Position numbers and translations under genes: made by a program | Assembly (NCBI RefSeq): GCF_000948285.1 | Contig: NZ_JYBP01000003.1 | Coordinates: 62,001 to 126,000, forward strand | DNA length: 64,000 nt | Reading direction: 5' to 3' | Source of the DNA: Geobacillus kaustophilus | GTDB lineage: Bacteria > Bacillota > Bacilli > Bacillales > Anoxybacillaceae | Notes under the pieces: model-generated | What the model saw: only the letters and a program-made list of their open reading frames with translations | The model's database searches: none | Told to the model about the DNA's origin: nothing | In this document: positions 53,174 through 57,607 of the stretch, in pieces | Numbering within the stretch: position 1 is the first letter of the stretch | Layout of the letters: each line of letters starts with the position of its first letter

Positions 53174-53731
53174 GTGGCCAAACAGCGAATCGACCATGAC
53201 CGGTTGTTCAAGGAGTTGCTGTCGACGTTTTTTGAAGAGTTTTTGCTTCTCTTTTTTCCCGACGTGTACGAGCAAATCGACGTTCATCACCTCTCCTTCC
53301 TCTCAGAAGAAGTGTTTACCGACATCACGGCCGGGGAAAAGCACCGTGTGGACTTGTTGGCAGAAACAAAGTTAAAAGGGGAAGACGGACTGATCATCGT
53401 TCACGTGGAGCATCAAAGCTACACGCAGCGGACCTTCCCCGAGCGAATGTTCATCTACTTCAGCCGCTTGTTTCAAAAACACCGCCGCCGCATTCTTTCG
53501 ATCGCCATCTCCAGCTATGACGAACACCACGATGAACCTTCCTCATTGATCATCCAGTTTCCGTTCCTGACGGTTCTCGATTTTCGTTTTCTGACGGTGG
53601 AATTGCGCAAACTGCCGTGGCGCCAGTACATTCGCCATGACAATCCGGTTGCCGCCGCCTTGTTAAGCAAAACCCCGGGGGATCGACGACAATCATTTTA
53701 TGCGTTCGAGCCTTACAGCCATCGAGGGTAA
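53174..53731 (+). pseudogene. Rpn/YhgA-like nuclease gene, C-terminally truncated
   Basis: The 185-residue frame starts at ATG 53174 behind GGAGGGGAAACG. It has the N-terminal part of the Rpn/YhgA-like PD-(D/E)XK family: DHDRLFKELLSTFFEEFLLLFFP, then the nuclease motif EKHRVDLLAET and IIVHVEHQSY. Full-length members run to about 300 residues, and here the frame breaks off after NPVAAALLSK into an unrelated tail. Such genes behave like mobile DNA. Two copies of a nearly identical hairpin bracket it. Confidence 0.65.
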
Positions 53732-53920: not shown

Positions 53921-55168
53921 TCACAAAATAGTCCCAGTGATTTCTCCTTTTTGGCTCTCCTTATCACTCCAGATTTTCCGCTGACGGTAGCTGATCCAAC
54001 CGCTGATGAAAAAGCAGAAGACAGACAAATAAAATGAAAAACGAATACCGCAAACATCGGCTATAAAGCTCATTAACAATGTGGAAATTCCGAATGTTAC
54101 GGAACTAATGACTCCCTGCACGGCAAAAACATGAGGTAGAGCGTCCATCCGGGCATTTTTTTGAAGAATCGTCTGAAGACAGATCAGCTTCCATTGTTCG
54201 ATGATCCCGTACAGGGCGGAATACATAAGCGCCAGCGCACCGTGCGTCGTTGTACCAAACAAAAGCGTTACAACAGCGATACAAAACGGGCCAAACAATA
54301 CAAAAAATTGCTGATTTTTTTCAACCGATTGACTAAACTTAACGCTTAACAATCCCCCTATCACCATGCCGCCAAAGAAAACAGAGTTAATATATCCCCA
54401 CCATTCCTCTCCTAAATGTAATTGTTCTTTCACATAAATATAAAGGATGGCCGAAATCCAAACACCATTTCCTATTCCTTCAAAAAATGACATTACGCTG
54501 ATGGATTTAGCGTGCACATTTCTCCAAGTGTATTCCCATCCTAGACTGATCGAAAGGAGAAATTTCTTTAAGCCTTTACCCTGAGCAACCTTCTCCTTTG
54601 CGCGTTCTTGTATATGCAAAAGAAACATGAGAATGCTCGAGGCGACATAGAACAATAAGGTGATATTGATTAAAAGGAACGGGGATCCTAAACTGACAAT
54701 CAAACTCCCGATCGGCCATGCGCTAAGTTTGATGAATTGGTCTAACGTGTTTAAAAAACTGTTGGCTTTCAAGATTTCCTCCTTGGAAACTATAAAAGGA
54801 ACGAGGGAGTTTTTAATCGGATTATTGATCCCGTCTAAAAAAGCGATCAATGATACAAAAACGTAAACGATCGCAATGTGATGTTCCGCACCCCATTGCA
54901 AAAACAGCGAGAGAAAAAGCAGCAGAAATGTTTTACACACTTGTCCGTAGGACAATAACGTTTTTAGTTTATATTTTTCGAAAAATATCGGTGCGACGAT
55001 TCCACTAATAAATAACGACAATGTAACGAAAAAAGGGACTAATGCGGCAGCCATGGCTTTCGATGTCAAATGATATAGGTAAGAGACAACGGAAACAATG
55101 TAGAACACATCTCCGAAATTCGCGAAAGATTGTCCGATCCAAAGGAAGTGAAATGTTTTATTTTTCAT
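53921..55168 (-). CDS. MFS transporter, efflux type
   Basis: The 415-residue membrane protein has about 12 hydrophobic segments and reads KNKTFHFLWIGQSFANFGDVFYIVSVVSYLYHLTS at the start, the pattern of MFS_3/macrolide-efflux and enterobactin-exporter (EntS) relatives. ATG 55168 follows AGAGAGGATTGAGG; the longer frame lacks a site. It is AT-rich and lies in the accessory island. It could export the product of the peptide and HExxH genes to its right, but it is transcribed away from them, so that is inference. Confidence 0.75.
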   Translation of the reverse strand: MKNKTFHFLWIGQSFANFGDVFYIVSVVSYLYHLTSKAMAAALVPFFVTLSLFISGIVAPIFFEKYKLKTLLSYGQVCKTFLLLFLSLFLQWGAEHHIAIVYVFVSLIAFLDGINNPIKNSLVPFIVSKEEILKANSFLNTLDQFIKLSAWPIGSLIVSLGSPFLLINITLLFYVASSILMFLLHIQERAKEKVAQGKGLKKFLLSISLGWEYTWRNVHAKSISVMSFFEGIGNGVWISAILYIYVKEQLHLGEEWWGYINSVFFGGMVIGGLLSVKFSQSVEKNQQFFVLFGPFCIAVVTLLFGTTTHGALALMYSALYGIIEQWKLICLQTILQKNARMDALPHVFAVQGVISSVTFGISTLLMSFIADVCGIRFSFYLSVFCFFISGWISYRQRKIWSDKESQKGEITGTIL

Positions 55169-55377
55169 GACCTCAATCCTCTCTTTGATCATCGAAACGA
55201 CTGGTGATGGAATAGTCAAAATGAGACAAAAATCAGATCTTCAGTCTTTGATGAAACTGGCTTTTTGCCACGCCCCAAATCCTAAAGGTAAATGGATATA
55301 CTGAAGCAATGGAAGCCTCCCCCTTATTCTGTTTAGAGTCCATTTTTATTCCTATGGTGCTGGTTGAGCATCAGCGC

Positions 55378-55762: not shown

Positions 55763-56025
55763 TACAACGAGTTATTGCATCTTAGTATTTGAAAGGTCAA
55801 GTTCAACTTTTGATGATATATAAGTTGCAATAAAAATTTCCGATTTTTCGTTTCTGTTTTGACCCCATACAATTCGACTATGCTATAACATTGCGAGTGA
55901 TCGGCTGGATGTAAAACAAAATTTCAATTTATATAGATGAGAATAATTTTATTTTTTTGATTGTTGTAATTATACATTTTTTTGTTAAAATGATAATAAA
56001 TACAAATGGAAGGAGGTGTTATTCC

Positions 56026-56142
56026 ATGAATAAAAAGCATGTCGAAAATATTAAACGTTATGTTGAGCATTATTTAAAAAGTAATGCACAAATGTCTCTT
56101 GTAGTACAACCACTTAGAATGCAAATTCATTTGACAAAGTAG
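56026..56142 (+). CDS. 38-residue peptide gene, candidate RiPP precursor or signal peptide
   Basis: A 38-codon frame starts at ATG 56026 with a strong AAGGAGG nine bases upstream. It begins MNKKHVENIKRYVEHYLKS, likely an amphipathic leader helix, then a polar/hydrophobic C-terminal part VVQPLRMQIHLTK. No signal peptide is seen. A 12-bp hairpin follows at 56166-56199. It lies 584 bases before the HExxH-protein gene in the same AT-rich island. I do not recognise the sequence; a modified peptide is a hypothesis. Confidence 0.5.
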   Translation: MNKKHVENIKRYVEHYLKSNAQMSLVVQPLRMQIHLTK

Positions 56143-56165
56143 TTTGTTCAATTTATGAAAAAAAT

Positions 56166-56199
56166 GGGGCTAGTTGATCGCTAAAACTCAACTAGCTCC
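56166..56199 (+). terminator. Hairpin after the small peptide gene
   Basis: GGGGCTAGTTGA (56166-56177) pairs with TCAACTAGCTCC (56188-56199) across a 10-base loop. No T-run follows, so it may be an attenuator or a message-stabilising end. Confidence 0.55.
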
Positions 56200-56725
56200 A
56201 GGAACATCGCGAAAAGTCCAACCTCGACGGTTACGACCCATGGGGAGGGGAGCGCTCCTTCACCCGTGGGGACATCACCCAAGAGCCTAAAATGGCCTCA
56301 AAACTGTCGAACTCGGGTGAAAGATGTACTTGACTTTTAGAAACAAACATGATGTTAACCCTCCCGGTTGAACAAAATAACAAAAAATGGAAATTAATCT
56401 TTTTGACGTTTCTATCATGAAAAACGTTTTTTGTCAAGTGTATTTTGTGGTGAGCTTTTTGCGATGTTGATTTTATGCGGCTTTTTCTCCCACTAAAAAA
56501 GCATGTTAATCCGTATAATCCTTAGTGTGACAAGGGATTGAAGGTTTGGGGTGAATGTTTGTTTTGACACAAAAATCCGCCGACTTCTCCTTTGATTTTA
56601 TCAAGTCCTGCTGGGGTAAAAAGTTTTTCCTCCTCTCTCCCATCCCTTGTGTACCAATGATTTTACGTCATCGAAAATAGCTCGTGGTGAAGAGCCATAA
56701 ATATACCGTAAATAGGGGGATTAGT
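56200..56725. other. Long leader between peptide gene and HExxH gene
   Basis: No gene is seen in 526 bases. ACAAGGGAT (56530-56538) and its inverse ATCCCTTGT (56642-56650) bracket a ~120-base segment that might be another small mobile element. Confidence 0.4.
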
Positions 56726-57607
56726 ATGTCAAGTATAGTTCAGACAGAATCAAAAATCTTTTTACCATTTCTGCATAAATCACACATTATCGAGAATATC
56801 GAGATTCTAAAAAATTATGTCGAGCAGGAAAGTGGAAAGAAATTCCCATTAGGTGTCACGTTAAAAGAGAAATATTTTGAAGCCATAAATTATATTCAAG
56901 ATGTTCCTGTTCCATACTCAAACGAAAAAATACATGTTACATATTTTGATAAAACATTGCAGAATAAATTACTTAGTTTGGGTATGATTGGCAAAGAGGA
57001 TTTGGAAAACGATAAACACATTTATTCTCAACAAGAGCAAGAAGTAATTACTGATAGAATTGAAAAAGCATTAAAATTGATCAAAGTATTGCATAATGAT
57101 TTGTATGATTTAATTAATACACTTATTGGTACCTTTTTGATTTTAAAAAAAGATTTGTTTGGTGGAGGATCAGTCTCCAATGTTATGGGATTAGTATGGT
57201 TAAACCCTCAATCTGATTGGTCAATCATTGAATATGCAGAGGCCATTTATCATGAGTTTATCCACCAAAGTATCTTCTTGGATGATATGATTAACTGTAT
57301 GTTTCCTAATGCTAATGAATGTGCAAAAGAAGAAGCTCTAGTTACATCAACCATCTTGAAAATCAAAAGGCCTTTAGACAGAGCATATCATGCTGCTGGA
57401 GTTTCTATAGGAATTATGCATCTTTATCACTTGTTTAATGATCCTAAAAATTCTGAGAAGTATATGGATGATTTGCGGAAAACAGTTGAAGAAATAGAGG
57501 CAAGAACACAATTCTTGGGGGAACAGGGAGTAAAAACTTTAGAAATAATGCGCAAGTTCATTAATCATCCATCTTTTGATGACATTACGTATTCCTTACA
57601 GAACTAA
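56726..57607 (+). CDS. HExxH-motif protein, putative peptide-modification enzyme
   Basis: The 293-residue protein starts at ATG 56726 behind TAGGGGG. Residues 176-180 are HEFIH, inside YAEAIYHEFIHQSIFLDD, preceded by GLVWLNPQSDWSIIE and followed by a helix with GIMHLYHLFND that may add a metal ligand. This arrangement resembles the putative HExxH peptide-modification (2-oxoglutarate-dependent beta-hydroxylase) family linked to RiPP clusters. No signal peptide or membrane segment fits a secreted protease. AT-rich codon use marks it as acquired. A plain metalloprotease remains possible. Confidence 0.6.
   Translation: MSSIVQTESKIFLPFLHKSHIIENIEILKNYVEQESGKKFPLGVTLKEKYFEAINYIQDVPVPYSNEKIHVTYFDKTLQNKLLSLGMIGKEDLENDKHIYSQQEQEVITDRIEKALKLIKVLHNDLYDLINTLIGTFLILKKDLFGGGSVSNVMGLVWLNPQSDWSIIEYAEAIYHEFIHQSIFLDDMINCMFPNANECAKEEALVTSTILKIKRPLDRAYHAAGVSIGIMHLYHLFNDPKNSEKYMDDLRKTVEEIEARTQFLGEQGVKTLEIMRKFINHPSFDDITYSLQN

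Follow-up and report, generated by a model that had tools for sequence, protein, structure and literature searches.

A 64,000-nucleotide stretch of the Geobacillus kaustophilus genome (assembly GCF_000948285.1, contig NZ_JYBP01000003.1, positions 62,001 to 126,000 of the forward strand; hereafter, the window) contains a 38-residue peptide gene that, together with the genes on either side of it, probably constitutes a minimal cluster for a ribosomally synthesized and post-translationally modified peptide (RiPP). As judged from profiles, alignments and a structure model, the core of the precursor would be oxidized, under guidance of its leader, by an alpha-ketoglutarate enzyme with an HExxH motif (aKG-HExxH), and the product would be exported by a protein of the major facilitator superfamily (MFS). 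The peptide and its relatives very probably make up a RiPP family in which a stand-alone aKG-HExxH enzyme is the only tailoring enzyme seen, the modification itself being predicted. The original prediction had proposed the peptide as a candidate substrate, with an HExxH gene to its right and an MFS gene to its left; both genes lie where it placed them, and the substrate reading is supported by co-occurrence and by assignment of the enzyme to the aKG-HExxH family through profile and predicted fold.

We compared 16 loci, in which the enzyme is 41–100% identical to that of the window. They comprise the Geobacillus/Anoxybacillus loci (the window; L012, G. thermocatenulatus; L017, G. icigianus, whose enzyme is cut by the contig end; L013, Anoxybacillus pushchinoensis; and L027, of the same genus group as L013), further loci (L014, Exiguobacterium; L037, L023, L024 and L025, Bacilli), plasmid loci (L039, L043 and L044, Staphylococcus warneri; L040, S. 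aureus, with two enzymes; L041, Cytobacillus), and one phage locus (L070, the SPbeta-like Bacillus phage SPbetaL1). Left out were repeats or overlaps (L001–L005, L011, L018–L022, L026, L031–L035, L045–L048 and L061–L067) and loci with only a C-terminal enzyme piece (L006/L015, which hold the rest of the L017 gene; L007/L016; L008–L010; L028–L030), while distant clades (L036/L038, L042, L055–L060, L068, L069 and L071–L073) were kept separate. A short precursor candidate adjoins the HExxH enzyme at all 16 loci, giving the conserved precursor gene expected of a RiPP cluster, and an MFS gene lies near the enzyme at 15; the check that the original prediction had set itself, whether short homologous peptides accompany HExxH homologues, thus comes out in its favor. 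Loss follows the same pattern. Among 41 genomes of the family, the peptide is found in 5, exactly those that keep enzyme residues 1–98, whereas 4 keep only a C-terminal enzyme piece, without the peptide, and 32 have neither. In three of these four (L028–L030), the same junction links window position 55339, which lies upstream of the peptide, with position 57353 within the enzyme, so that the peptide has been lost together with most of the enzyme; the last ~84 enzyme residues and MFS DNA of ~92% identity are retained.

The precursor itself is conserved in two separate parts. The window peptide, which occurs as an identical 38-residue protein in three Geobacillus genomes, has a predicted leader at about residues 1–23 and a C-terminal part at 24–38. 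A leader motif, I..[YF], recurs in the N-terminal half at 15 of the 16 loci (all but L024), and the core motif M-x-[I/L]-H likewise at 15, the exception being phage SPbetaL1 with MILK. In a ten-row precursor alignment, from which L024 and near-identical copies were excluded, Ile9 and Met32 are invariant and Asn8 and His35 occur in nine rows; examples of the core are QPLRMQIHL, KPLRMQIHT, VQNMQIHDEE, LVMQLHDEG, VVRMALHDL and LVMMIHDEN. In the 125-residue L024 precursor, the unit LRMAI occurs eight times at a spacing of about 15 residues; HD follows in seven cases and R in the last, which points to the LRM-x-I-H stretch as the core, independently of leader and position. Over 38 codons, the window and Anoxybacillus peptides show nonsynonymous divergence (dN) of 0.12 and synonymous divergence (dS) of 0.68, for a dN/dS of ~0.18. 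The original prediction had seen Gln, His and Asn-type hydroxylation targets in the C-terminal LVVQPLRMQIHLTK region; Gln and His are present and Asn is not, and the proposed target His is conserved at 15 of the 16 loci.

It is this conservation, as read from the alignments, and not the open reading frame (ORF) itself that exceeds chance. ORFs of 30–60 codons with a ribosome site number 289 in the 284.5 kb of window plus loci, or ~1 per kb, and because ORFs of such size are this common, a 38-codon ORF alone proves nothing. M-x-[I/L]-H falls in the last 25 residues of 12 of these 289, made up of 11 precursor entries and 1 of the 278 others. The motif had already been recognized when this control was run, its loci include copies and close relatives, and its filter passed over three candidates, those of L024, L025 and L044, which were too long or had a ribosome-site spacing that was not accepted. 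Family-library scans covered eight clade precursors, with those of L024, L025, L043, L044 and L070 outside their scope; no NCBIfam model matched the window precursor or the other seven. DUF2470 (PF10615) scores the window peptide at 20.1 bits (E 0.00092), below its gathering threshold of 22, and was rejected as the origin of the leader, being matched below cutoff in that one precursor of the eight.

By profile and predicted fold, the enzyme belongs with the aKG-HExxH peptide hydroxylases. Its score with TIGR04267 (NCBIfam, aKG-HExxH-type peptide beta-hydroxylase; cutoff 40) is 42.7 bits, and relatives score 45.7 (L037), 55.0 (L025) and 50.3 (L023). A structure model built from ten relatives (mean predicted local distance difference test score 91, predicted template modeling score 0.89) finds as its best solved-structure match the HExxH domain of the aKG-dependent oxygenase ChlB (PDB 8s5f), with a Z of 21.3 and a root mean square deviation of 3.6 over 247 aligned residues (Foldseek E 5.5e-07); SjiH-Ni (22ob) follows at Z 18.0, and the next row drops to 6.0. 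H176, E177, H180, R215 and H222 are invariant across the ten relatives (the L024 row of the alignments starts upstream of any likely start), and the same residues are aligned in ChlH, at a weak sequence match (E 0.028); they would serve in binding iron and aKG. The window enzyme shares 99% identity with its G. thermocatenulatus counterpart. For the MFS protein, the best curated model is the ryptide exporter NF041056 (206.8 bits in the window, 130.3 in L014, 185.5 in L037); all three scores are far below the equivalog cutoff of 575, and no ryptide cluster is present here.

What the sequences show is conservation, co-occurrence, the family and predicted fold of the enzyme, and the presence of an MFS gene; that the peptide is a substrate, which of its residues is modified, that the leader is taken off and the product exported, and what the hairpin after the precursor does are inferences. 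The N-terminal part, ENIKRYVEHYL, would act as leader for the stand-alone enzyme, which would be an Fe(II)/aKG oxygenase with a zincin-like fold and would oxidize the C-terminal core QPLRMQIH; host proteases would remove the leader (the cluster shows no peptidase gene), and export of the small product would fall to the MFS protein. The hairpin may possibly hold the precursor above enzyme levels. The characterized members of this family hydroxylate His, Asp, Phe, Gln or Pro residues of RiPP precursors (PMC13060819; here and below, papers are cited for the portions of their text that were available). Beta-hydroxylation of His35 is the likeliest single change that we would predict, although we hold it tentatively and at well under an even chance; Gln33, Gln28 and Pro29 are the other candidate sites, with cleavage near LRM as a further alternative.

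Several observations weigh against this scheme. The TIGR04267 score of the window enzyme is barely above the cutoff. The leader motif is missing from the L024 precursor. Its last unit ends in Arg instead of His, and the phage precursor has Lys where other precursors have His, two variants that argue against a fixed His. No MFS gene was found in the 12.9-kb stretch of phage SPbetaL1, and the MFS match at L041 shifts between frames. The enzyme gene is damaged at two loci, by a frame break in L041 and by truncation in L044, and two precursor starts are doubtful, L025 having a GTG directly at the ribosome site and L044 no clear in-frame start. In the window, a 232-bp repeat (56452–56683) separates precursor from enzyme. 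Finally, the counts of co-occurrence and co-loss are not independent events, because the genomes are related.

Among other explanations, the enzyme might make an oxidative cut in the peptide, either in addition to hydroxylation or as a substitute for it, much like PflC/PosC at ARMD, releasing a C-terminally amidated peptide near LRM, in which case no protease would be needed on that side. There is precedent, in that these relatives cleave before ARMD (PMC12636437); a dipeptide RM, also found in PflA/PosA, is present in the core at 12 of the 16 loci, and the lack of a visible peptidase gene would fit. However, RM is missing from L040, L041, L025 and L070; the Arg, Met and Asp of PosA are individually dispensable, whereas its Ala matters (PMC12636437) and the window core has Leu at that place; and the xIH that follows RM is conserved, which a discarded tail would not explain. 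We consider oxidative cleavage unlikely.

Hydroxylation of the core by an oxygenase also has to be weighed against the reading of HExxH as the classic zincin motif, by which the protein would be a metalloprotease with the peptide as its processing substrate. The weak fold matches do include peptidases, leukotriene A4 hydrolase for one (Z near 5.8), and as PflC hydrolyzes a leaderless peptide (PMC12636437), some protease activity is possible. Yet the peptidases reach a Z of only ~6 against the values for the ChlB HExxH domain and SjiH, the oxygenase profile passes its cutoff, and R215 and H222 follow ChlH, so that the metalloprotease reading, rejected on the ChlH alignment and the fold comparison, appears very improbable. 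Still harder to credit is that the peptide is no substrate at all and is conserved for another role, whether as a signal, as a small toxin or as an upstream ORF with a regulatory function. The position of the ORF upstream of the enzyme with a hairpin in between, the DUF2470 match, and tetratricopeptide repeat/helix-turn-helix (TPR/HTH) regulators near some relatives would agree with such a role, but the conservation lies in the amino acids and is strongest in the C-terminal core, the L024 precursor gene shares its strand with the MFS gene and diverges from the enzyme gene, and DUF2470 recognizes a single clade precursor among those scanned.

Table 1. Features of the candidate cluster in the window (positions counted from the first base of the window).
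Feature	Position	Strand	Remarks
Precursor peptide gene, 38 aa	56026..56142	+	ATG 56026, TAG 56140-56142
Ribosome binding site AAGGAGG	56010..56016	+	9 bases 5' of ATG 56026
Promoter-like site TTGTAA-16-TAAAAT, TG before second hexamer	55964..55991	+	Weak; would give short 5' leader
Conserved core QPLRMQIH, residues 28-35	56107..56130	+	Alignment; repeated core units in L024
12-pair hairpin 3' of precursor	56166..56199	+	Position common to most relatives, sequence not
Probable MFS exporter, 415 aa from ATG start	53921..55168	-	Left of precursor; profile search
Predicted stand-alone aKG-HExxH-type peptide hydroxylase, 293 aa	56726..57607	+	HEFIH at 57251-57265; R215, H222

The signals around the small ORF are given in Table 1. 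The promoter-like site is weak because such matches in the scan (7) do not exceed the shuffle mean (8.0). The hairpin stem (56166–56177 with 56188–56199; 12 pairs including one G-U, and a 10-base loop) lies 24 to 57 bases past the stop, and folding of the 80 bases 3' of the stop gives −21.3 kcal/mol, a z of −3.3 relative to mononucleotide shuffles. When the 55–80 bases after the precursor were folded for nine loci, again against mononucleotide shuffles, z ranged from −2.8 to −7.1 in seven and was −1.6 in L040 and −0.7 in L023, and the stem sequences of the relatives look unrelated. The original prediction had described ribosome site, start codon, 38 codons and hairpin as a complete small transcription unit. 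The elements were placed correctly, but completeness is unsupported, since the stem is followed by no T run and the terminator scan of the window does not list the hairpin; a role as intrinsic terminator was rejected for lack of the T run.

The 232-bp repeat upstream of the enzyme, whose reading frame is intact, has inverted ends (GAGCT...AGCTC) and a 5-base duplication, GTGGT; 5-base duplications flank the three copies read, four copies besides that of the window occur in the genome (90–99%), and the repeat is absent from the corresponding site in G. thermocatenulatus and G. icigianus. It looks like a small non-autonomous transposon and may alter cluster expression in the window strain. Next to it, window positions 56200–56455 are a mosaic of shorter sequences that recur genome-wide, with 34 matches, mostly of 33–36 bp, for the whole 501-bp query. 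At 53174–53731 the window encodes a 185-residue Rpn/PD-(D/E)XK transposase-like protein that matches only the N-terminal part of its families and is probably truncated. The minus-strand gene to the right of the HExxH gene is presumably pckA-like.

A TPR/HTH regulator gene lies near L014, L037 and the distant L038, which suggests signal-controlled expression there; none was seen beside the window cluster. In L014 (107–484 and 614–1927), the Exiguobacterium cluster adjoins this regulator as well as a peptide that looks secreted and holds five SEQD(Y)PGAGK repeats; the two may form a quorum-sensing pair.

The cluster is rare and patchily distributed. Relatives were found in 7 of 398 genomes of a class draw, in 8 of 397 of an order draw (including two remnants and one distant relative), and in 1 of 398 of a phylum draw, the window's own genome; narrower draws gave 2 of 39 (family of G225), 1 of 19 (genus of G327) and 1 of 23 (family of G138), counts that hold at the thresholds used and for draws that overlap. 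Nine of 72,556 plasmid records matched, five of them in this clade (45–58% identical), as did one phage among 50,697 records. The plasmid relatives were found via the enzyme, the 38-residue peptide having no plasmid match; the S. aureus plasmid precursor, used as query, matched itself only, and a PHROGs comparison yielded nothing useful. Phage SPbetaL1 carries its precursor candidate and HExxH relative (41.7%) at L070 5783–6867, both annotated as hypothetical proteins. In S. warneri 16A (L044 4992–6238), the HExxH gene is cut short beside an IS257-family transposase, with resistance genes nearby. That the cluster travels on plasmids and in an SPbeta-like phage suggests that its carriers benefit, and that the product may serve in competition or signaling. 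A bolder possibility, which we regard as a long shot, is a self-sufficient RiPP class disseminated by plasmids and phages, in which a single aKG-HExxH enzyme would both hydroxylate and oxidatively trim the core, such that precursor, oxygenase and MFS pump alone would give a finished, exported peptide, under control of an adjacent TPR-type quorum regulator in some hosts.

Other clades also pair HExxH genes with small ORFs. L038 (8726–10844) has two tandem identical precursors ending in RRMFATDSN, two tandem HExxH enzymes, an MFS gene and a TPR regulator, and a relative in L069 (866–1024) has PLRMFATD. On an Acinetobacter plasmid (L042 4688–4903), a 71-residue ORF with PLRMIAYED lies upstream of a distant HExxH gene, with no MFS match in the stretch. 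At L057 (921–1421), a 30-residue peptide in four identical copies sits beside a different HExxH gene, likely as a multi-precursor cluster. Three contigs of viral collections (L071 2612–2782, L072 3728–3892 and L073 375–515) have small ORFs ending in MMGGWT(S/N) just upstream of distant HExxH relatives, likely another precursor type. Although RM appears in the distant candidates L038, L069 and L042, it was rejected as a universal mark of HExxH substrates, as it was not seen in the likely precursors of L057, L060, L068 and L071–L073.

The aKG-HExxH oxygenases have been recognized as peptide hydroxylases only recently. A three-gene kit with an oxygenase as sole modifier and natural substrates of 37–66 residues, together with one multicore variant, would offer a particularly simple setting in which to study residue choice, and the sequences supply testable rules, namely the I..[YF] leader, the M-x-[I/L]-H core and the natural His-to-Lys exception in the phage. 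Our literature search, whose coverage took in few subscription journals, returned no paper on this peptide family. The closest comparison is with PflC/PosC of the Pseudomonas pfl and pos clusters (PMC12636437), which share with the window a stand-alone HExxH enzyme, action on the C-terminal region of the precursor, leader control (predicted for the window) and transporter genes, with no protease gene in the cluster as far as the available text describes it. These clusters differ in their long NHLP-type leader, poly-Gln core, ARMD end, MNIO–nitroreductase fusion and acetyltransferase (PMC12636437), whereas the window has a 38-residue peptide with an M-x-[I/L]-H core, and no further tailoring enzyme was seen there; its core, QPLRMQIHLTK, is not the poly-Gln stretch with C-terminal ARMD of PflA/PosA. 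The ChlB HExxH domain, which resembles the window enzyme in predicted fold, HExxH motif and aligned Arg and His despite the weak sequence match, hydroxylates Asp and His of a RiPP precursor (PMC12636437). PesO of the nitrilobacillins is likewise a Bacillota aKG-HExxH enzyme with a short precursor and hydroxylates a Pro just before a conserved Arg-containing motif, a further likeness, but its cluster adds an MNIO, an asparagine synthetase-like enzyme and peptidases, and the C-terminal motif is R(V/T)DN (PMC13060819). BpmH/BipH of the biphenomycin clusters are also aKG-HExxH hydroxylases in a RiPP setting, with an MFS transporter in bip, and differ in coming into play late, after an MNIO and a radical SAM enzyme have produced the cross-linked FRF core on which they act (PMC12257519, PMC12707348). 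In the accessible descriptions, aKG-HExxH enzymes thus sit among radical SAM enzymes, MNIOs or other tailoring enzymes (PMC12636437, PMC13060819, PMC12257519, PMC12707348); what appears new in the present cluster, as judged from its gene content, is that no tailoring enzyme other than the oxygenase was seen next to the precursor.
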